Shown: piece by piece, positions 6,401-41,600 of the stretch | Layout: every line of letters begins with the position of its first letter | Numbering within the stretch: position 1 is the stretch's first letter | Origin: Ilex aquifolium | Taxonomy: Eukaryota > Streptophyta > Magnoliopsida > Aquifoliales > Aquifoliaceae | Length of the DNA stretch: 64,000 nucleotides | Assembly (NCBI GenBank): GCA_951799425.1 | Contig: OX637397.1 | Location: 41,644,409-41,708,408 of the forward strand | Direction of reading: 5' to 3' | Position numbers and translations under genes: made by a program | Notes under the pieces: generated by a model | The model's input: only the letters and a program-made list of their open reading frames with translations | What the model was told of the DNA's origin: nothing | Database searches by the model: none

Positions 6401-7225
6401 CTGATGGAAGGTTGGTATAGTTGGCCATTCCCCTCCACAAGGAAAAAAAAGTAATTCCCATTCATTCCTATTTCTGACATAACTTTTTACTCCGGTCTCT
6501 GATTAAGTTGATTCTTGCGGCATTGTAAAGAATTCTTGAATCGCTAACCATTTTATTCACATCAAAAGTCATGAAAAATCCTCTAGCATGGGCTATATTG
6601 CAACGCAAATTTGGTGTAATAAGTAGTCCTCCTTTAAAATGAAATAGTCTATCGGACATAACTTTTTCTCCCGAACTCGGATTGAGCTAATTCTTGCGGC
6701 ATTGTAAAGAGAACTTGAAACCCTAACCAATATATTCAGATCAAAATTGGTGATTCATCTTCTAACAAGTTCGAAATGGTGATGGAAGTTTGGTATAGTT
6801 GACCATTCCCCTCCACAAGGAAAAAAAAGTAATTTCCCATTCTTTCTTATTTCTGACATAACTGTTTACTCCGGTCTCTGATTAAGTTGATTCTTGCGGC
6901 ATTGTAAATAATTATTGAATCCCTTACCATTTTATTCACATCAAAAGTCATGAAAAATCCTCTAGCATGGGCTATATTGTAACGCAAATTTGGTGTAGTA
7001 AGTAGTCCTCCGTTAAAATGAAATAGTCTATCGGACATAACTTTTTCTCCCGAACTCGGATTGAGCTAATTCTTGCGGCATTGTAAAGAGAACTTGAAAC
7101 CCTAACCAATATATTCAGATCAAAATTGGTGATTCATCTTCTAACAAGTTCGAAATGGTGATGGAAGTTTGGTATAGTTGACCATTCCCCTCCACAAGGA
7201 AAAAAAAGTAATTTCCCATTCTTTC

Positions 7226-7604
7226 TTATTTCTGACATAACTTTTTACTCCGGTCTCTGATTAAGTTGATTCTTGCGGCATTGTAAAGAATTCTTGAATC
7301 CCTAACCATTTTATTCACATCAAAAGTCATGAAAAATCCTCTAGCATGGGCTATATTGGAACGCAAATTTGGTGTAATAAGTAGTCCTCCTTTAAAATGA
7401 AATAGTCTATCGGACATAACATTTTCACCCGAACTCGGATAGAGCTAATTCTTGCAGCATTTTAAAGAGAACTTGAAACCCTAACCAATATATTCAGATC
7501 AAAATTGGTGATTCATCTTCTAACAAGTTCGAAATGGTGATGGAAGTTTGGTATAGTTGTCCATTCCCCTCCACAAGGAAAAAAAAGTAATTTCCCATTC
7601 ATTC
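7226..7604. repeat. HOR unit type a (first copy)
   Basis: Diagnostic bases are attggaacgc in half A (g at 7359), gtaataag rather than gtagtaag, cacccg and gatagagc in half B, cttgcagc (a at 7456) inside the conserved core, and ending ttgtcc. The same set returns at 9500, 11774, 14048, 16322 and 17459. Confidence 0.9.
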
Positions 7605-7983
7605 TTATTTCTGACATAACTTTTTACTCCGGTCTCTGATTAAGTTGATTCTTGCGGCATTGTAAAGAATTCTTGAATCGCTAACCATTTTATTCACATC
7701 AAAAGTCATGAAAAATCCTCTAGCACGGGCTATATTGTAACGCAAATTTGGTGTAATAAGTAGTCCTCCTTTAAAATGAAATAGTCTATCGGACATAACA
7801 TTTTCTCCCGAACTCGGATTGAGCTAATTCTTGCGGCATTTTAAAGAGAACTTGAAACCCTAACCAATATATTCAGATCAAAATTGGTGATTCATCTTCT
7901 AAAAAAATTCGAAATGCTGATGGAAGGTTGGTATAGTTGGCCATTCCCCTCCACAAGGAAAAAAAAGTAATTCCCATTCATTC
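7605..7983. repeat. HOR unit type b (first copy)
   Basis: Diagnostic bases are gaatcgctaacc and agcacggg in half A. In half B they are ctcccg, a run reading cttctaaaaaaattcg in place of cttctaacaagttcg, then atgctgatgg, and ending ttggcc. The copies at 11774+379 and 14048+379 additionally read atactgatgg. Related units recur in the right part of the array as type Q, with caaattcg. Confidence 0.9.
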
Positions 7984-8362
7984 TTATTTCTGACATAACT
8001 TTTTACTCCGGTCTCTGATTAAGTTGATTCTTGCGGCATTGTAAAGAATTCTTGAATCCCTAACCATTTTATTCACATCAAAAGTCATGAAAAATCCTCT
8101 AGCATGGGCTATATTGTAACACAAATTTGGTGTAGTAAGTAGTCCTCCTTTAAAATGAAATAGTCTATCGGACATAACATTTTCACCCGAACTCGGATTA
8201 AGCTAATTCTTGCGGCATTTTAAAGAGAACTTGAAACCCTAACCAATATATTCAGATCAAAATTGGTGATTCATCTTCTAACAAGTTCGAAATGGTGATG
8301 GAAGTTTGGTATAGTTGGTCATTCCCCTCCACAAGGAAAAAAAAGTAATTTCCCATTCTTTC
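7984..8362. repeat. HOR unit type c (first copy)
   Basis: Diagnostic bases are taacacaaat in half A, gattaagc in half B and ending ttggtc. The tail before it is the shorter gtaattccc form. The copy at 17080 is chimeric: it starts as c but ends ttgacc. Confidence 0.9.
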
Positions 8363-8741
8363 TTATTTCTGACATAACTTTTTACTCCGGTTTCTGATTA
8401 AGTTGATTCTTTCGGCATTGTAAATAATTATTGAATCCCTTACCATTTTATTCACATCAAAAGTCATGAAAAATCCTCTAGCAGGGGCTATATTGTAACG
8501 CAAATTTGGTGTAGTAAGTAGTCCTCCTTTAAAATGAAATAGTCTATCGGACATAACTTTTTCTCCCGAACTCGGATTGAGCTAATTCTTGCGGCATTGT
8601 AAAGAGAACTTGAAACCCTAACCAATATATTCAGATCAAAATTGGTGATTCATCTTCTAACAAGTTCGAAATGGTGATGGAAGTTTGGTATAGTTGACCA
8701 TTCCCCTCCACAAGGAAAAAAAAGTAATTTCCCATTCTTTC
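8363..8741. repeat. HOR unit type d (first copy)
   Basis: Diagnostic bases are ggtttctgatt, ttctttcggc (core altered), taaataattattg and agcagggg in half A, with ctcccg, cattgtaaag and ending ttgacc in half B. This first copy has aaaatgaaatag; all five later d copies (10637, 12911, 15185, 18596, 19733) read aaaatggaatag. Confidence 0.9.
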
Positions 8742-9120
8742 TTATTTCTGACATAACTTTTTACTCCGGTCTCTGATTAAGTTGATTCTTGCGGCATTGT
8801 AAAGAATTCTTGAATCCCTAACCATTTTATTCACATCAAAAGTCATGAAAAATCCTCTAGCATGGGCTATATTGTAACGCAAATTTGGTGTAGTAAGTAG
8901 TCCTCCTTTAAAATGAAATAGTCTATCGGACATAACATTTTCACCCGAACTCGGATAGAGCTAATTCTTGCGGCATTTTAAAGAGAACTTGAAACCCTAA
9001 CCAATATATTCAGATCAAAATTGGTGATTCATCTTCTAACAAGTTCGAAATGGTGATGGAAGTTTGGTATAGTTGTCCATTCCCCTCCACAAGGAAAAAA
9101 AAGTAATTTCCCATTCTTTC
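8742..9120. repeat. HOR unit type e (first copy)
   Basis: Half A is the array consensus (type P). Half B has cacccg, gatagagc, cattttaaag and ending ttgtcc. It recurs in the HOR at 11016, 13290, 15564, 18975 and 20112. The same unit is reused beside F units in the right part of the array (for example 24282, 25040, 36021, 40568, 47768). Confidence 0.9.
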
Positions 9121-9499
9121 TTATTTCTGACATTACTTTTTACTCCGGTCTCTGATTAAGTTGATTCTTGCGGCATTGTAAAGAATTATTGAATCCCTTA
9201 CCATTTTATTCACATCAAAAGTCATGAAAAATCCTCTAGCATGGGCTATATTGTAACGCAAATTTGGTGTAGTAAGTAGTCCTCCTTTAAAATGAAATAG
9301 TCTATCGGACATAACTTTTTCTCCCGAACTCGGATTGAGCTAATTCTTGCGGCATTGTAAAGAGAACTTGAAACCCTAACCAATATATTCAGATCAAAAT
9401 TGGTGATTCATCTTCTAACAAGTTCGAAATGGTGATGGAAGTTTGGTATAGTTGACAATTCCCCTCCACAAGGAAAAAAAAGTAATTTCCCATTCTTTC
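9121..9499. repeat. HOR unit type f (first copy)
   Basis: Diagnostic bases are gacattac instead of gacataac at the half A opening, gaattattgaatccctta (no EcoRI site), ctcccg and cattgtaaag in half B and ending ttgacc. The copy here has a private c-to-a change (gttgacaatt near 9455). Copies at 11395 and 13669 share cttgaggc in half A; copies at 15943 and 19354 do not. Confidence 0.9.
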
Positions 9500-12400
9500 T
9501 TATTTCTGACATAACTTTTTACTCCGGTCTCTGATTAAGTTGATTCTTGCGGCATTGTAAAGAATTCTTGAATCCCTAACCATTTTATTCACATCAAAAG
9601 TCATGAAAAATCCTCTAGCATGGGCTATATTGGAACGCAAATTTGGTGTAATAAGTAGTCCTCCTTTAAAATGAAATAGTCTATCGGACATAACATTTTC
9701 ACCCGAACTCGGATAGAGCTAATTCTTGCAGCATTTTAAAGAGAACTTGAAACCCTAACCAATATATTCAGATCAAAATTGGTGATTCATCTTCTAACAA
9801 GTTCGAAATGGTGATGGAAGTTTGGTATAGTTGTCCATTCCCCTCCACAAGGAAAAAAAAGTAATTTCCCATTCATTCTTATTTCTGACATAACTTTTTA
9901 CTCCGGTCTCTGATTAAGTTGATTCTTGCGGCATTGTAAAGAATTCTTGAATCGCTAACCATTTTATTCACATCAAAAGTCATGAAAAATCCTCTAGCAC
10001 GGGCTATATTGTAACGCAAATTTGGTGTAATAAGTAGTCCTCCTTTAAAATGAAATAGTCTATCGGACATAACATTTTCTCCCGAACTCGGATTGAGCTA
10101 ATTCTTGCGGCATTTTAAAGAGAACTTGAAACCCTAACCAATATATTCAGATCAAAATTGGTGATTCATCTTCTAAAAAAATTCGAAATGCTGATGGAAG
10201 GTTGGTATAGTTGGCCATTCCCCTCCACAAGGAAAAAAAAGTAATTCCCATTCATTCTTATTTCTGACATAACTTTTTACTCCGGTCTCTGATTAAGTTG
10301 ATTCTTGCGGCATTGTAAAGAATTCTTGAATCCCTAACCATTTTATTCACATCAAAAGTCATGAAAAATCCTCTAGCATGGGCTATATTGTAACACAAAT
10401 TTGGTGTAGTAAGTAGTCCTCCTTTAAAATGAAATAGTCTATCGGACATAACATTTTCACCCGAACTCGGATTAAGCTAATTCTTGCGGCATTTTAAAGA
10501 GAACTTGAAACCCTAACCAATATATTCAGATCAAAATTGGTGATTCATCTTCTAACAAGTTCGAAATGGTGATGGAAGTTTGGTATAGTTGGTCATTCCC
10601 CTCCACAAGGAAAAAAAAGTAATTTCCCATTCTTTCTTATTTCTGACATAACTTTTTACTCCGGTTTCTGATTAAGTTGATTCTTTCGGCATTGTAAATA
10701 ATTATTGAATCCCTTACCATTTTATTCACATCAAAAGTCATGAAAAATCCTCTAGCAGGGGCTATATTGTAACGCAAATTTGGTGTAGTAAGTAGTCCTC
10801 CTTTAAAATGGAATAGTCTATCGGACATAACTTTTTCTCCCGAACTCGGATTGAGCTAATTCTTGCGGCATTGTAAAGAGAACTTGAAACCCTAACCAAT
10901 ATATTCAGATCAAAATTGGTGATTCATCTTCTAACAAGTTCGAAATGGTGATGGAAGTTTGGTATAGTTGACCATTCCCCTCCACAAGGAAAAAAAAGTA
11001 ATTTCCCATTCTTTCTTATTTCTGACATAACTTTTTACTCCGGTCTCTGATTAAGTTGATTCTTGCGGCATTGTAAAGAATTCTTGAATCCCTAACCATT
11101 TTATTCACATCAAAAGTCATGAAAAATCCTCTAGCATGGGCTATATTGTAACGCAAATTTGGTGTAGTAAGTAGTCCTCCTTTAAAATGAAATAGTCTAT
11201 CGGACATAACATTTTCACCCGAACTCGGATAGAGCTAATTCTTGCGGCATTTTAAAGAGAACTTGAAACCCTAACCAATATATTCAGATCAAAATTGGTG
11301 ATTCATCTTCTAACAAGTTCGAAATGGTGATGGAAGTTTGGTATAGTTGTCCATTCCCCTCCACAAGGAAAAAAAAGTAATTTCCCATTCTTTCTTATTT
11401 CTGACATTACTTTTTACTCCGGTCTCTGATTAAGTTGATTCTTGAGGCATTGTAAAGAATTATTGAATCCCTTACCATTTTATTCACATCAAAAGTCATG
11501 AAAAATCCTCTAGCATGGGCTATATTGTAACGCAAATTTGGTGTAGTAAGTAGTCCTCCTTTAAAATGAAATAGTCTATCGGACATAACTTTTTCTCCCG
11601 AACTCGGATTGAGCTAATTCTTGCGGCATTGTAAAGAGAACTTGAAACCCTAACCAATATATTCAGATCAAAATTGGTGATTCATCTTCTAACAAGTTCG
11701 AAATGGTGATGGAAGTTTGGTATAGTTGACCATTCCCCTCCACAAGGAAAAAAAAGTAATTTCCCATTCTTTCTTATTTCTGACATAACTTTTTACTCCG
11801 GTCTCTGATTAAGTTGATTCTTGCGGCATTGTAAAGAATTCTTGAATCCCTAACCATTTTATTCACATCAAAAGTCATGAAAAATCCTCTAGCATGGGCT
11901 ATATTGGAACGCAAATTTGGTGTAATAAGTAGTCCTCCTTTAAAATGAAATAGTCTATCGGACATAACATTTTCACCCGAACTCGGATAGAGCTAATTCT
12001 TGCAGCATTTTAAAGAGAACTTGAAACCCTAACCAATATATTCAGATCAAAATTGGTGATTCATCTTCTAACAAGTTCGAAATGGTGATGGAAGTTTGGT
12101 ATAGTTGTCCATTCCCCTCCACAAGGAAAAAAAAGTAATTTCCCATTCATTCTTATTTCTGACATAACTTTTTACTCCGGTCTCTGATTAAGTTGATTCT
12201 TGCGGCATTGTAAAGAATTCTTGAATCGCTAACCATTTTATTCACATCAAAAGTCATGAAAAATCCTCTAGCACGGGCTATATTGTAACGCAAATTTGGT
12301 GTAATAAGTAGTCCTCCTTTAAAATGAAATAGTCTATCGGACATAACATTTTCTCCCGAACTCGGATTGAGCTAATTCTTGCGGCATTTTAAAGAGAACT

Positions 12401-15400
12401 TGAAACCCTAACCAATATATTCAGATCAAAATTGGTGATTCATCTTCTAAAAAAATTCGAAATACTGATGGAAGGTTGGTATAGTTGGCCATTCCCCTCC
12501 ACAAGGAAAAAAAAGTAATTCCCATTCATTCTTATTTCTGACATAACTTTTTACTCCGGTCTCTGATTAAGTTGATTCTTGCGGCATTGTAAAGAATTCT
12601 TGAATCCCTAACCATTTTATTCACATCAAAAGTCATGAAAAATCCTCTAGCATGGGCTATATTGTAACACAAATTTGGTGTAGTAAGTAGTCCTCCTTTA
12701 AAATGAAATAGTCTATCGGACATAACATTTTCACCCGAACTCGGATTAAGCTAATTCTTGCGGCATTTTAAAGAGAACTTGAAACCCTAACCAATATATT
12801 CAGATCAAAATTGGTGATTCATCTTCTAACAAGTTCGAAATGGTGATGGAAGTTTGGTATAGTTGGTCATTCCCCTCCACAAGGAAAAAAAAGTAATTTC
12901 CCATTCTTTCTTATTTCTGACATAACTTTTTACTCCGGTTTCTGATTAAGTTGATTCTTTCGGCATTGTAAATAATTATTGAATCCCTTACCATTTTATT
13001 CACATCAAAAGTCATGAAAAATCCTCTAGCAGGGGCTATATTGTAACGCAAATTTGGTGTAGTAAGTAGTCCTCCTTTAAAATGGAATAGTCTATCGGAC
13101 ATAACTTTTTCTCCCGAACTCGGATTGAGCTAATTCTTGCGGCATTGTAAAGAGAACTTGAAACCCTAACCAATATATTCAGATCAAAATTGGTGATTCA
13201 TCTTCTAACAAGTTCGAAATGGTGATGGAAGTTTGGTATAGTTGACCATTCCCCTCCACAAGGAAAAAAAAGTAATTTCCCATTCTTTCTTATTTCTGAC
13301 ATAACTTTTTACTCCGGTCTCTGATTAAGTTGATTCTTGCGGCATTGTAAAGAATTCTTGAATCCCTAACCATTTTATTCACATCAAAAGTCATGAAAAA
13401 TCCTCTAGCATGGGCTATATTGTAACGCAAATTTGGTGTAGTAAGTAGTCCTCCTTTAAAATGAAATAGTCTATCGGACATAACATTTTCACCCGAACTC
13501 GGATAGAGCTAATTCTTGCGGCATTTTAAAGAGAACTTGAAACCCTAACCAATATATTCAGATCAAAATTGGTGATTCATCTTCTAACAAGTTCGAAATG
13601 GTGATGGAAGTTTGGTATAGTTGTCCATTCCCCTCCACAAGGAAAAAAAAGTAATTTCCCATTCTTTCTTATTTCTGACATTACTTTTTACTCCGGTCTC
13701 TGATTAAGTTGATTCTTGAGGCATTGTAAAGAATTATTGAATCCCTTACCATTTTATTCACATCAAAAGTCATGAAAAATCCTCTAGCATGGGCTATATT
13801 GTAACGCAAATTTGGTGTAGTAAGTAGTCCTCCTTTAAAATGAAATAGTCTATCGGACATAACTTTTTCTCCCGAACTCGGATTGAGCTAATTCTTGCGG
13901 CATTGTAAAGAGAACTTGAAACCCTAACCAATATATTCAGATCAAAATTGGTGATTCATCTTCTAACAAGTTCGAAATGGTGATGGAAGTTTGGTATAGT
14001 TGACCATTCCCCTCCACAAGGAAAAAAAAGTAATTTCCCATTCTTTCTTATTTCTGACATAACTTTTTACTCCGGTCTCTGATTAAGTTGATTCTTGCGG
14101 CATTGTAAAGAATTCTTGAATCCCTAACCATTTTATTCACATCAAAAGTCATGAAAAATCCTCTAGCATGGGCTATATTGGAACGCAAATTTGGTGTAAT
14201 AAGTAGTCCTCCTTTAAAATGAAATAGTCTATCGGACATAACATTTTCACCCGAACTCGGATAGAGCTAATTCTTGCAGCATTTTAAAGAGAACTTGAAA
14301 CCCTAACCAATATATTCAGATCAAAATTGGTGATTCATCTTCTAACAAGTTCGAAATGGTGATGGAAGTTTGGTATAGTTGTCCATTCCCCTCCACAAGG
14401 AAAAAAAAGTAATTTCCCATTCATTCTTATTTCTGACATAACTTTTTACTCCGGTCTCTGATTAAGTTGATTCTTGCGGCATTGTAAAGAATTCTTGAAT
14501 CGCTAACCATTTTATTCACATCAAAAGTCATGAAAAATCCTCTAGCACGGGCTATATTGTAACGCAAATTTGGTGTAATAAGTAGTCCTCCTTTAAAATG
14601 AAATAGTCTATCGGACATAACATTTTCTCCCGAACTCGGATTGAGCTAATTCTTGCGGCATTTTAAAGAGAACTTGAAACCCTAACCAATATATTCAGAT
14701 CAAAATTGGTGATTCATCTTCTAAAAAAATTCGAAATACTGATGGAAGGTTGGTATAGTTGGCCATTCCCCTCCACAAGGAAAAAAAAGTAATTCCCATT
14801 CATTCTTATTTCTGACATAACTTTTTACTCCGGTCTCTGATTAAGTTGATTCTTGCGGCATTGTAAAGAATTCTTGAATCCCTAACCATTTTATTCACAT
14901 CAAAAGTCATGAAAAATCCTCTAGCATGGGCTATATTGTAACACAAATTTGGTGTAGTAAGTAGTCCTCCTTTAAAATGAAATAGTCTATCGGACATAAC
15001 ATTTTCACCCGAACTCGGATTAAGCTAATTCTTGCGGCATTTTAAAGAGAACTTGAAACCCTAACCAATATATTCAGATCAAAATTGGTGATTCATCTTC
15101 TAACAAGTTCGAAATGGTGATGGAAGTTTGGTATAGTTGGTCATTCCCCTCCACAAGGAAAAAAAAGTAATTTCCCATTCTTTCTTATTTCTGACATAAC
15201 TTTTTACTCCGGTTTCTGATTAAGTTGATTCTTTCGGCATTGTAAATAATTATTGAATCCCTTACCATTTTATTCACATCAAAAGTCATGAAAAATCCTC
15301 TAGCAGGGGCTATATTGTAACGCAAATTTGGTGTAGTAAGTAGTCCTCCTTTAAAATGGAATAGTCTATCGGACATAACTTTTTCTCCCGAACTCGGATT

Positions 15401-16321
15401 GAGCTAATTCTTGCGGCATTGTAAAGAGAACTTGAAACCCTAACCAATATATTCAGATCAAAATTGGTGATTCATCTTCTAACAAGTTCGAAATGGTGAT
15501 GGAAGTTTGGTATAGTTGACCATTCCCCTCCACAAGGAAAAAAAAGTAATTTCCCATTCTTTCTTATTTCTGACATAACTTTTTACTCCGGTCTCTGATT
15601 AAGTTGATTCTTGCGGCATTGTAAAGAATTCTTGAATCCCTAACCATTTTATTCACATCAAAAGTCATGAAAAATCCTCTAGCATGGGCTATATTGTAAC
15701 GCAAATTTGGTGTAGTAAGTAGTCCTCCTTTAAAATGAAATAGTCTATCGGACATAACATTTTCACCCGAACTCGGATAGAGCTAATTCTTGCGGCATTT
15801 TAAAGAGAACTTGAAACCCTAACCAATATATTCAGATCAAAATTGGTGATTCATCTTCTAACAAGTTCGAAATGGTGATGGAAGTTTGGTATAGTTGTCC
15901 ATTCCCCTCCACAAGGAAAAAAAAGTAATTTCCCATTCTTTCTTATTTCTGACATTACTTTTTACTCCGGTCTCTGATTAAGTTGATTCTTGCGGCATTG
16001 TAAAGAATTATTGAATCCCTTACCATTTTATTCACATCAAAAGTCATGAAAAATCCTCTAGCATGGGCTATATTGTAACGCAAATTTGGTGTAGTAAGTA
16101 GTCCTCCTTTAAAATGAAATAGTCTATCGGACATAACTTTTTCTCCCGAACTCGGATTGAGCTAATTCTTGCGGCATTGTAAAGAGAACTTGAAACCCTA
16201 ACCAATATATTCAGATCAAAATTGGTGATTCATCTTCTAACAAGTTCGAAATGGTGATGGAAGTTTGGTATAGTTGACCATTCCCCTCCACAAGGAAAAA
16301 AAAGTAATTTCCCATTCTTTC

Positions 16322-17458
16322 TTATTTCTGACATAACTTTTTACTCCGGTCTCTGATTAAGTTGATTCTTGCGGCATTGTAAAGAATTCTTGAATCCCTA
16401 ACCATTTTATTCACATCAAAAGTCATGAAAAATCCTCTAGCATGGGCTATATTGGAACGCAAATTTGGTGTAATAAGTAGTCCTCCTTTAAAATGAAATA
16501 GTCTATCGGACATAACATTTTCACCCGAACTCGGATAGAGCTAATTCTTGCAGCATTTTAAAGAGAACTTGAAACCCTAACCAATATATTCAGATCAAAA
16601 TTGGTGATTCATCTTCTAACAAGTTCGAAATGGTGATGGAAGTTTGGTATAGTTGTCCATTCCCCTCCACAAGGAAAAAAAAGTAATTTCCCATTCATTC
16701 TTATTTCTGACATAACTTTTTACTCCGGTCTCTGATTAAGTTGATTCTTGCGGCATTGTAAAGAATTCTTGAATCGCTAACCATTTTATTCACATCAAAA
16801 GTCATGAAAAATCCTCTAGCACGGGCTATATTGTAACGCAAATTTGGTGTAATAAGTAGTCCTCCTTTAAAATGAAATAGTCTATCGGACATAACATTTT
16901 CTCCCGAACTCGGATTGAGCTAATTCTTGCGGCATTTTAAAGAGAACTTGAAACCCTAACCAATATATTCAGATCAAAATTGGTGATTCATCTTCTAAAA
17001 AAATTCGAAATGCTGATGGAAGGTTGGTATAGTTGGCCATTCCCCTCCACAAGGAAAAAAAAGTAATTCCCATTCATTCTTATTTCTGACATAACTTTTT
17101 ACTCCGGTCTCTGATTAAGTTGATTCTTGCGGCATTGTAAAGAATTCTTGAATCCCTAACCATTTTATTCACATCAAAAGTCATGAAAAATCCTCTAGCA
17201 TGGGCTATATTGTAACACAAATTTGGTGTAGTAAGTAGTCCTCCTTTAAAATGAAATAGTCTATCGGACATAACATTTTCACCCGAACTCGGATTAAGCT
17301 AATTCTTGCGGCATTTTAAAGAGAACTTGAAACCCTAACCAATATATTCAGATCAAAATTGGTGATTCATCTTCTAACAAGTTCGAAATGGTGATGGAAG
17401 TTTGGTATAGTTGACCATTCCCCTCCACAAGGAAAAAAAAGTAATTTCCCATTCTTTC
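16322..17458. repeat. Truncated HOR copy: units a-b-c only (1137 bp)
   Basis: After c (17080) the next unit is a (17459), so d, e and f are missing. The c unit has the c-specific taacacaaat and gattaagc but ends ttgacc as f units do. It is therefore a c/f chimera, joined where f normally meets a. Confidence 0.9.
17317..17413. other. Recombination interval c-to-f (deletion junction)
   Basis: The last c-specific base is the t of cattttaaag (17316); the first f-specific base is the a of ttgacc (17414). Types c and f are identical in between, so the exchange point cannot be narrowed further. In unit coordinates the interval begins 237 bases after the unit start. Confidence 0.8.
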
Positions 17459-19590
17459 TTATTTCTGACATAACTTTTTACTCCGGTCTCTGATTAAGTT
17501 GATTCTTGCGGCATTGTAAAGAATTCTTGAATCCCTAACCATTTTATTCACATCAAAAGTCATGAAAAATCCTCTAGCATGGGCTATATTGGAACGCAAA
17601 TTTGGTGTAATAAGTAGTCCTCCTTTAAAATGAAATAGTCTATCGGACATAACATTTTCACCCGAACTCGGATAGAGCTAATTCTTGCAGCATTTTAAAG
17701 AGAACTTGAAACCCTAACCAATATATTCAGATCAAAATTGGTGATTCATCTTCTAACAAGTTCGAAATGGTGATGGAAGTTTGGTATAGTTGTCCATTCC
17801 CCTCCACAAGGAAAAAAAAGTAATTTCCCATTCATTCTTATTTCTGACATAACTTTTTACTCCGGTCTCTGATTAAGTTGATTCTTGCGGCATTGTAAAG
17901 AATTCTTGAATCGCTAACCATTTTATTCACATCAAAAGTCATGAAAAATCCTCTAGCACGGGCTATATTGTAACGCAAATTTGGTGTAATAAGTAGTCCT
18001 CCTTTAAAATGAAATAGTCTATCGGACATAACATTTTCTCCCGAACTCGGATTGAGCTAATTCTTGCGGCATTTTAAAGAGAACTTGAAACCCTAACCAA
18101 TATATTCAGATCAAAATTGGTGATTCATCTTCTAAAAAAATTCGAAATGCTGATGGAAGGTTGGTATAGTTGGCCATTCCCCTCCACAAGGAAAAAAAAG
18201 TAATTCCCATTCATTCTTATTTCTGACATAACTTTTTACTCCGGTCTCTGATTAAGTTGATTCTTGCGGCATTGTAAAGAATTCTTGAATCCCTAACCAT
18301 TTTATTCACATCAAAAGTCATGAAAAATCCTCTAGCATGGGCTATATTGTAACACAAATTTGGTGTAGTAAGTAGTCCTCCTTTAAAATGAAATAGTCTA
18401 TCGGACATAACATTTTCACCCGAACTCGGATTAAGCTAATTCTTGCGGCATTTTAAAGAGAACTTGAAACCCTAACCAATATATTCAGATCAAAATTGGT
18501 GATTCATCTTCTAACAAGTTCGAAATGGTGATGGAAGTTTGGTATAGTTGGTCATTCCCCTCCACAAGGAAAAAAAAGTAATTTCCCATTCTTTCTTATT
18601 TCTGACATAACTTTTTACTCCGGTTTCTGATTAAGTTGATTCTTTCGGCATTGTAAATAATTATTGAATCCCTTACCATTTTATTCACATCAAAAGTCAT
18701 GAAAAATCCTCTAGCAGGGGCTATATTGTAACGCAAATTTGGTGTAGTAAGTAGTCCTCCTTTAAAATGGAATAGTCTATCGGACATAACTTTTTCTCCC
18801 GAACTCGGATTGAGCTAATTCTTGCGGCATTGTAAAGAGAACTTGAAACCCTAACCAATATATTCAGATCAAAATTGGTGATTCATCTTCTAACAAGTTC
18901 GAAATGGTGATGGAAGTTTGGTATAGTTGACCATTCCCCTCCACAAGGAAAAAAAAGTAATTTCCCATTCTTTCTTATTTCTGACATAACTTTTTACTCC
19001 GGTCTCTGATTAAGTTGATTCTTGCGGCATTGTAAAGAATTCTTGAATCCCTAACCATTTTATTCACATCAAAAGTCATGAAAAATCCTCTAGCATGGGC
19101 TATATTGTAACGCAAATTTGGTGTAGTAAGTAGTCCTCCTTTAAAATGAAATAGTCTATCGGACATAACATTTTCACCCGAACTCGGATAGAGCTAATTC
19201 TTGCGGCATTTTAAAGAGAACTTGAAACCCTAACCAATATATTCAGATCAAAATTGGTGATTCATCTTCTAACAAGTTCGAAATGGTGATGGAAGTTTGG
19301 TATAGTTGTCCATTCCCCTCCACAAGGAAAAAAAAGTAATTTCCCATTCTTTCTTATTTCTGACATTACTTTTTACTCCGGTCTCTGATTAAGTTGATTC
19401 TTGCGGCATTGTAAAGAATTATTGAATCCCTTACCATTTTATTCACATCAAAAGTCATGAAAAATCCTCTAGCATGGGCTATATTGTAACGCAAATTTGG
19501 TGTAGTAAGTAGTCCTCCTTTAAAATGAAATAGTCTATCGGACATAACTTTTTCTCCCGAACTCGGATTGAGCTAATTCTTGCGGCATTG

Positions 19591-19687
19591 TAAAGAGAAC
19601 TTGAAACCCTAAGCAATATATTCAGATCAAAATTGGTGATTCATCTTCTAACAAGTTCGAAATGGTGATGGAAGTTTGGTATAGTTG
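19591..19687. other. Recombination interval f-to-c (duplication junction)
   Basis: The f unit at 19354 keeps the f-specific g of cattgtaaag (19590) but ends ttggtc as c units do (g at 19688), and is followed by d as c units are. In unit coordinates this is the same 97-base interval as at 17317-17413, with the opposite polarity. This unit also has two private changes, cctaagcaat (near 19613) and tcaatcccc (near 19692). Confidence 0.8.
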
Positions 19688-19732
19688 GTCAATCCCCTCC
19701 ACAAGGAAAAAAAAGTAATTTCCCATTCTTTC

Positions 19733-20869
19733 TTATTTCTGACATAACTTTTTACTCCGGTTTCTGATTAAGTTGATTCTTTCGGCATTGTAAATAATTA
19801 TTGAATCCCTTACCATTTTATTCACATCAAAAGTCATGAAAAATCCTCTAGCAGGGGCTATATTGTAACGCAAATTTGGTGTAGTAAGTAGTCCTCCTTT
19901 AAAATGGAATAGTCTATCGGACATAACTTTTTCTCCCGAACTCGGATTGAGCTAATTCTTGCGGCATTGTAAAGAGAACTTGAAACCCTAACCAATATAT
20001 TCAGATCAAAATTGGTGATTCATCTTCTAACAAGTTCGAAATGGTGATGGAAGTTTGGTATAGTTGACCATTCCCCTCCACAAGGAAAAAAAAGTAATTT
20101 CCCATTCTTTCTTATTTCTGACATAACTTTTTACTCCGGTCTCTGATTAAGTTGATTCTTGCGGCATTGTAAAGAATTCTTGAATCCCTAACCATTTTAT
20201 TCACATCAAAAGTCATGAAAAATCCTCTAGCATGGGCTATATTGTAACGCAAATTTGGTGTAGTAAGTAGTCCTCCTTTAAAATGAAATAGTCTATCGGA
20301 CATAACATTTTCACCCGAACTCGGATAGAGCTAATTCTTGCGGCATTTTAAAGAGAACTTGAAACCCTAACCAATATATTCAGATCAAAATTGGTGATTC
20401 ATCTTCTAACAAGTTCGAAATGGTGATGGAAGTTTGGTATAGTTGTCCATTCCCCTCCACAAGGAAAAAAAAGTAATTTCCCATTCTTTCTTATTTCTGA
20501 CATTACTTTTTACTCCGGTCTCTGATTAAGTTGATTCTTGCGGCATTGTAAAGAATTATTGAATCCCTTACCATTTTATTCACATCAAAAGTCATGAAAA
20601 ATCCTCTAGCATGGGCTATATTGTAACGCAAATTTGGTGTAGTAAGTAGTCCTCCTTTAAAATGAAATAGTCTATCGGACATAACTTTTTCTCCCGAACT
20701 CGGATTGAGCTAATTCTTGCGGCATTGTAAAGAGAACTTGAAACCCTAACCAATATATTCAGATCAAAATTGGTGATTCATCTTCTAACAAGTTCGAAAT
20801 GGTGATGGAAGTTTGGTATAGTTGACCATTCCCCTCCACAAGGAAAAAAAAGTAATTTCCCATTCTTTC
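19733..20869. repeat. Extra HOR half-copy: units d-e-f (1137 bp)
   Basis: Units d, e and f follow directly on the d-e-f of the preceding full HOR, making a tandem def-def. The last f (20491) ends ttgacc normally. The following unit (20870) is no longer type a: it has attgtaacgc and gtagtaag. The regular HOR therefore stops here. Confidence 0.9.
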
Positions 20870-38672: not shown

Positions 38673-41600
38673 TTATTTCTGACATAACTTTTTACTCCGG
38701 TCTCTGATTAAGTTGATTCTTGCGGCATTGTAAAGAATTCTTGAATCCCTAACCATTTTATTCACATCAAAAGTCATGAAAAATCCTCTAGCATGGGCTA
38801 TATTGTAACGCAAATTTGGTGTAGTAAGTAGTCCTCCTTTTAAAATGAAATAGTCTATCGGACATAACATTTTCACCCGAACTCGGATTGAGCTAATTCT
38901 TGCGGCATTTTAAAGAGAACTTGAAACCCTAACCAATATATTCAGATCAAAATTGGTGATTCATCTTCTAACAAGTTCGAAATGGTGATGGAAGTTTGGT
39001 ATAGCTGTCCATTCCCCTCCACAAGGAAAAAAAAGTAATTTCCCATTCTTTCTTATTTCTGACATTACTTTTTACTCCGGTCTCTGATTAAGTTGATTCT
39101 TGCGGCATTGTAAAGAATTCTTGAATCGCTAACCATTTTATTCACATCAAAAGTCATGAAAAATCCTCTAGCATGGGCTATATTGCAACGCAAATTTGGT
39201 GTAATAAGTAGTCCTCCTTTAAAATGAAATAGTCTATCGGACATAACTTTTTCTCCCGAACTCGGATTGAGCTAATTCTTGCGGCATTGTAAAGAGAACT
39301 TGAAACCCTAACCAATATATTGAGATCAAAATTGGTGATTCATCTTCTAACAAGTTCGAAATGGTGATGGAAGTTTGGTATAGTTGGCCATTCGCCTCCA
39401 CAAGGAAAAAAAAGTAATTCCCATTCATTCTTATTTCTGACATAACTGTTTACTCCGGTCTCTGATTAAGTTGATTCTTGCGGCATTGTAAAGAATTATT
39501 GAATCCCTTACCATTTTATTCACATCAAAAGTCATGAAAAATCCTCTAGCATGGGCTATATTGTAACGCAAATTTGGTGTAGTAAGTAGTCCTCCTTTAA
39601 AATGAAATAGTCTATCGGACATAACTTTTTCTCCCGAACTCGGATTGAGCTAAGTCTTGCGGCATTGTAAAGAGAACTTGAAACCCTAACCAATATATTC
39701 AGATCAAAATTGGTGATTCATCTTCTAACAAGTTCGAAATGGTGATGGAAGTTTGGTATAGTTGACCATTCCCATCCACAAGGAAAAAAAAGTAATTTCC
39801 CATTCTTTCTTATTTCTGACATAACTTTTTACTCCGGTCTCTGATTAAGTTGATTCTTGCGGCATTGTAAAGAATTCTTGAATCCCTAACCATTTTATTT
39901 ACATCAAAAGTCATGAAAAATCCTCTAGCATGGGCTATATTGTAACGCAAATTTGGTGTAGTAAGTAGTCCTCCTTTAAAATGAAATAGTCTATCGGACA
40001 TAACATTTTCACCCGAACTCGGATAGAGCTAATTCTTGCGGCATTTTAAAGAGAACTTGAAACCCTAACCAATATATTCAGATCAAAATTGGTGATTCAT
40101 CTTCTAACAAGTTCGAAATGGTGATGGAAGTTTGGTATAGTTGTCCATTCCCCTCCACAAGGAAAAAAAAGTAATTTCCCATTCTTTCTTATTTCTGACA
40201 TTACTTTTTACTCCGGTCTCTGATTAAGTTGATTCTTGCGGCATTGTAAAGAATTATTGAATCCCTTACCATTTTATTCACATCAAAAGTCATGAAAAAT
40301 CCTCTAGCATGGGCTATATTGTAACGCAAATTTGGTGTAGTAAGTAGTCCTCCTTTAAAATGAAATAGTCTATCGGACATAACTTTTTCTCCCGAACTCG
40401 GATTGAGCTAATTCTTGCGGCATTGTAAAGAGAACTTGAAACCCTAACCAATATATTCAGATCAAAATTGGTGATTCATCTTCTAACAAGTTCGAAATGG
40501 TGATGGAAGTTTGGTATAGTTGACCATTCCCCTCCACAAGGAAAAAAAAGTAATTTCCCATTCTTTCTTATTTCTGACATAACTTTTTACTCCGGTCTCT
40601 GATTAAGTTGATTCTTGCGGCATTGTAAAGAATTCTTGAATCCCTAACCATTTTATTCACATCAAAAGTCATGAAAAATCCTCTAGCATGGGCTATATTG
40701 TAACGCAAATTTGGTGTAGTAAGTAGTCCTCCTTTAAAATGAAATAGTCTATCGGACATAACATTTTCACCCGAACTCGGATAGAGCTAATTCTTGCGGC
40801 ATTTTAAAGAGAACTTGAAACCCTAACCAATATATTCAGATCAAAATTGGTGATTCATCTTCTAACAAGTTCGAAATGGTGATGGAAGTTTGGTATAGTT
40901 GTCCATTCCCCTCCACAAGGAAAAAAAAGTAATTTCCCATTCATTCTTATTTCTGACATAACTTTTTACTCCGGTCTCTGATTAAGTTGATTCTTGCGGC
41001 ATTGTAAAGAATTCTTGAATCCCTAACCATTTTATTCACATCAAAAGTCATGAAAAATCCTCTAGCATGGGCTATATTGTAACGCAAATTTGGTGTAGTA
41101 AGTAGTCCTCCTTTTAAAATGAAATAGTCTATCGGACATAACATTTTCACCCGAACTCGGATTGAGCTAATTCTTGCGGCATTTTAAAGAGAACTTGAAA
41201 CCCTAACCAATATATTCAGATCAAAATTGGTGATTCATCTTCTAACAAGTTCGAAATGGTGATGGAAGTTTGGTATAGCTGTCCATTCCCCTCCACAAGG
41301 AAAAAAAAGTAATTTCCCATTCTTTCTTATTTCTGACATTACTTTTTACTCCGGTCTCTGATTAAGTTGATTCTTGCGGCATTGTAAAGAATTCTTGAAT
41401 CGCTAACCATTTTATTCACATCAAAAGTCATGAAAAATCCTCTAGCATGGGCTATATTGCAACGCAAATTTGGTGTAATAAGTAGTCCTCCTTTAAAATG
41501 AAATAGTCTATCGGACATAACTTTTTCTCCCGAACTCGGATTGAGCTAATTCTTGCGGCATTGTAAAGAGAACTTGAAACCCTAACCAATATATTGAGAT

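Follow-up and report, generated by a model that had tools for sequence, protein, structure and literature searches.

Two reciprocal hybrid units in a 379-bp satellite array of Ilex aquifolium point to a probable off-register insertion of one whole six-unit repeat

The stretch of DNA analysed here, hereafter the window, is the 64 kb at C7:41644409-41708408 (C7 = OX637397.1) in an 800-Mb assembly of Ilex aquifolium with 103 contigs, and the whole of it is one 379-bp tandem array (a single row in TRF, 168.9 copies, 96% matches). From the window we cut and aligned 167 units, with the first 406 and the last 327 bases excluded. Unit alignment and labelling place a block of 36 units at 7226-20869 (+ strand), organised as a six-unit repeat, abcdef, with a repeat length of 2274 bp. 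The block runs through four clean abcdef repeats (HOR1-4) and then reads abc/f, abcdef/c and def, where c/f and f/c are hybrid units. A 40-base marker in unit d has six exact matches in the whole assembly and all six fall inside 7226-20869; hence, by this marker, the abcdef repeat is private to the block. Over the 190 kb upstream of the window, the nearest relatives of abcdef are diverged versions approximately 21-28 kb before the window (C7:41614409-41624408), in which the a, c, e and f units are near-identical to those of the block and the d-like units differ at three sites. Across HOR1-4 (7226-16321), a marker in b (column 315) is either G or A and one in f (column 51) is either C or A, and each of the four possible pairings occurs, reflecting either in-register recombination between repeats or recurrent mutation.

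Ten alignment columns separate units c and f. The c/f unit (17080-17458) is identical to c apart from a pair of neighbouring bases at 17414-17415, where it has the f-like AC and a c-like unit would have GT, and the f/c unit (19354-19732) is f-like up to 19590 with the c-like GT at 19688-19689. Together with their neighbours, the two units delimit the following features:

16322-17316, + strand: left part of the putative host (a, b and the head of c), c-like up to 17316
17317-17413, + strand: left joint interval, c to f, between the last c-like site (17316) and the first f-like site (17414); unique in the assembly
17414-19590, + strand: core of the putative insert (f tail, a, b, c, d, e, f head), which with its edges makes up one whole repeat, shifted by three units; its units equal those of the host bar the two joint substitutions
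19591-19687, + strand: right joint interval, f to c, between the last f-like site (19590) and the first c-like site (19688)
19613, + strand: singleton C>G, inside the right joint interval; found a single time among the 167 window units, and likewise among the 669 units of the 254 kb
19688-20869, + strand: right part of the putative host (tail of c, then d, e, f), with GT at 19688-19689; d, e and f match the other copies in the block except as listed here
19692, + strand: singleton T>A, three bases past the GT marker; once in the 167 window units and once in 669 units

A first-pass annotation of this DNA had read the order in 16322-20869 as abc-abcdef-def, with a c-to-f exchange in 17317-17413 and an f-to-c exchange in 19591-19687 that share one interval of the unit and have opposite polarity. 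Unit alignment bears this out in full: the region reads abc/f-abcdef/c-def, the sequence is c-like to 17316 and f-like from 17414 at the left joint and f-like to 19590 and c-like from 19688 at the right one, and both joints occupy the same unit columns (241-338, 98 alignment columns) in opposite sense, 2274 bp apart. At each joint the tail is assigned from two adjacent bases and from which unit, a or d, comes next; the GT tail marker is present in 9 of the 167 window units, and so is not confined to c. An exact 219-base pattern for the c/f joint has a single match in the 800-Mb assembly.

The joints are also reciprocal, as had been proposed, and a link between them is probable, given that a simple identity-tract weighting puts an independent, exactly matching second exchange at 0.004-0.009. 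Taken alone, the shared interval is weak evidence for linkage. At 98 columns it is the joint-longest identity tract between the abc and def halves, and the chance that two exchanges at this register share an interval is 0.05-0.30, depending on the minimum-identity setting.

Probably, though with considerable room for doubt, a single event inserted a whole 2274-bp repeat into a c unit with a register offset of three units. The region would then be bracketed as abc[f-abcde-f]c-def, with a host c unit split at one point and one whole repeat filling the split, and the ancestral array would have been 2274 bp shorter. The break or crossover point would lie in the c-f identity tract of the c unit in the last abcdef repeat, and because of that location the c/f left edge and the f/c right edge would fall at the same unit position. 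One insertion would thus produce both joints, their opposite sense, their shared position and their 2274-bp spacing, and it needs no deletion and no second ancestral abcdef. When a single c-by-f crossover was tried at four columns of the interval, all 4548 bases fitted except 19613 and 19692; six units of the region serve as templates in this model, and the real test is their accounting for the other six.

The insert has the length of a whole number of units (2274 bp = six x 379), its removal leaves a normal abcdef host apart from the joint substitution assigned to the host, and it is the host repeat once 19613 and 19692 are set aside. None of HOR1-4 matches the insert. Neighbouring repeats differ at three sites (HOR1-2) or at one site (HOR2-3, HOR3-4 and HOR4-host), and an identical neighbour repeat has a chance near 0.22 (Poisson, mean 1.5); the identity of insert and host hence lends modest support to a fresh local copy. 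Judged from this assembly, donor and target are both local, because the d marker occurs nowhere outside the block. Against one insertion, the off-register pairings at registers 2 and 4 are closer (summed differences 71) than the one at register 3 (90).

Two routes could lead to such an insertion. In route (a), a one-repeat circle, freed by ordinary in-register recombination, would integrate via a single c-by-f crossover. In route (b), a broken c end would invade the sister chromatid at an f unit, three units out of position, copy one repeat and rejoin the other end of the same break. Adjacency carries no penalty under route (a) and would carry a mild one under route (b). A point against the one-event reading is that copying of a broken end tends to produce a single joint rather than two. 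Of the two routes we lean slightly towards (b), because the best donor is local and the two substitutions lie at one joint only.

These substitutions, 19613 and 19692 in the f/c unit, were absent from the first-pass annotation and are the only singletons in the 36-unit block. Two random changes in the block would both land in that region with a chance of approximately 5e-5 to 1e-4, a figure judged post hoc. The c unit within the insert is without either substitution, so both date from the event or later. The 27-mer around 19692 has one match on C7 and three on a second contig, C14. A diverged donor was rejected, as the C14 units with the 27-mer are only 89-92% like the f/c unit and are without the 19613 change; chance recurrence of the 27-mer on C14 is likelier. 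A general mutagenic effect at junctions was not supported either (4 of 47 singletons in narrow junction zones, P = 0.18). In the portion of PMC3039667 available, break-induced replication is described as inaccurate and as stimulating frameshifts, but the fit is loose because the changes here are substitutions and not frameshifts.

Whether the repeat arrived specifically as a 2274-bp circle, entering by one off-register crossover with the two joints as its left and right attachment sites, is more doubtful, and we hold it only tentatively. If true, the region would record, at the level of sequence, the return of a circle to a satellite array. Should any circle have taken part, this one is favoured because of the work of Navratilova et al. 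2008 (PMC2543021), whose available text reports circles from all the satellites studied across ten plant species, as monomer or higher-order multiples. That study detected the circles themselves and, in the same portion of its text, left their role in satellite amplification open, whereas the present case is read from sequence alone.

Because the rival explanations predict identical letters, the choice among models rests on likelihood, and the chances quoted for the rivals are weightings by identity-tract length and not measured rates. The models differ in what must be assumed in addition: a def circle must add adjacency, a length-neutral tract must add the shared position, and independent exchanges must add nearly everything. 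They also differ in the ancestral allele, which would be 2274 bp shorter under one insertion, of equal length with a possible 1137-bp-shorter intermediate under a def circle, and of equal length under a length-neutral tract.

The mechanism put forward in the first-pass annotation was an off-register c-by-f exchange on one chromatid that freed a 1137-bp def circle, which then reinserted by homology into the next def. Its reciprocal, linked joints hold up and the mechanism is possible, but the 1137-bp circle is not needed, as one insertion gives the same sequence. Such a circle would account exactly for the shared interval and the opposite sense, and it would have few in-register targets (six d-marker matches in the assembly, all in the block), so that a landing next door is less surprising. 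It nevertheless combines off-register excision with reinsertion one repeat away, at approximately 0.2 on the assumption that some five local copies are the only targets, and it requires an ancestor with two adjacent repeats that agreed at every marker, as none of the four neighbouring pairs do. The available text of PMC12321929 further calls re-integration of circles likely much rarer than excision. We regard this reading as unlikely.

We think still less of a length-neutral tract, in which one conversion or template-switch event would have overwritten 2274 bp of an existing abcdef-abcdef with sequence from a partner out of alignment by three units, and then returned to register. This too is a single event that covers the spacing and the opposite sense, and gene conversion without crossing over has been reported in maize centromeres (PMC2834711, as far as its available text goes). 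It leaves the shared interval to chance, at 0.011-0.072 if tracts average 1-3 kb and at 0.0002-0.011 if they average 300-500 bp, and the conversion tracts reported from Arabidopsis centromeres are near 125 bp (Dong et al. 2025, as summarised in the accessible part of PMC12321929).

To obtain base rates, 669 units over 254 kb (the window plus the 190 kb upstream) were decoded with a copying model, and this gave 129 junctions. Insertion-type triples, in which the two outer segments derive from one uninterrupted source, number four with the present event included, compared with a mean of 1.14 for shuffled lags and four or more in 2.8% of 2000 shuffles (P 0.028). The other three comprise one with non-overlapping joint intervals, one of a single unit and one that copies a source three units away. 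Length-neutral returns number zero among 130 decoded segments in the 254 kb (shuffled mean 1.43). These counts favour an insertion over a length-neutral tract, although short conversions are invisible to the decoding because two jumps cost eight mismatches. The flanks of the insert fit equal and shifted lags alike, the block being periodic, and the present event can hence be placed in either class, insertion or length-neutral. A loose scan for insertions gave 263 candidate rows and was too permissive for counting; a stricter scan still yields other sites, many of them the present event read backwards, and no count was drawn from it.

An assembly artefact, by misjoining of near-identical copies or of haplotypes, is very unlikely in our judgement. 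The array is long and near-identical and contig C7 ends inside the satellite, which would favour misjoins, and the exchanges lie in a long identity tract, where real recombination would also put them; the f/c unit, in turn, has two substitutions of its own, each seen once in 669 units. Least credible are two independent unequal exchanges, one deleting a def and the other duplicating a def: junctions are common (34 in the window's 167 units, 129 in 669 units), but the joints would be expected to be unrelated in position and sense and instead share the unit pair and the interval in opposite sense, and identity-tract weighting gives 0.0039-0.0085 for the exact reciprocal given the first joint and 0.0036-0.068 for any two events being reciprocal in any tract.

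Hybrid monomers that arise by exchange between two monomer types are familiar from the higher-order repeats of alpha satellite. Unlike those, the holly block has two reciprocal hybrids one repeat apart with a common exchange interval. The behaviour of the array is ordinary satellite turnover, and its unusual legibility is the interest: the routes of satellite growth (circle re-entry, post-break copying, unequal exchange) are seldom easy to reconstruct, given how similar the copies are, and a half-repeat register shift exposes the two sides of a single event. Unequal exchange, conversion, circles and break-induced replication are reviewed in section 8 of PMC12321929, whose available text also cites in-frame indels of 1-31 monomers in Arabidopsis centromeres (Dong et al. 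2025). The single insertion that we prefer would resemble the in-frame insertions from adjacent sequence described there in its whole number of units and nearby source. It would differ from them, as far as that text describes them, in that the insert is half a repeat off register with both edges visible and that the array is terminal on its contig.

Regarding the chromosomal setting, C7 ends at 42.80 Mb inside the 379-bp satellite, and in its last 1001 bases the orientation is opposite to that of the window, so that the orientation seems to switch between the window and the contig end. C14 carries a related satellite with 378-379 bp spacing, whose units are 89-92% like the f/c unit at three places (31.63-32.39 Mb); the end of C14, at 32.47 Mb, lies in TTTAGGG repeats, with 143 of them in its last 1001 bases. 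TTTAGGG is the common plant telomere repeat. Because C14, with the related satellite, ends in this repeat and C7 ends within the satellite, the array is probably subtelomeric. A search of the window against Rfam at gathering thresholds gave no matches, and an exact scan of viral contigs for the satellite sequence gave none. Six satellite pieces of 19-20 bases had no match in a literature text search, and none of the papers listed for a 379-bp satellite with the centromere fitted, as judged by titles and the beginnings of abstracts.

Several further features of the array were seen. The left edge of the abcdef copying segment (6704-6802) lies at unit columns 240-339, the same unit interval as both joints. 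Exact copies of unit types occur far beyond the block, 12 of the e type from 8742 to 47768 and seven of the f type from 15943 to 42463. At 40568-40946 an e-like unit with an altered base near its end (column 380) sits at a decoding junction and is perhaps a single-unit deletion joint. A 16-base word repeats through the array at spacings of 179 and 200 bases, and each 379-bp unit appears to be made up of two related halves, approximately 190 bp each.
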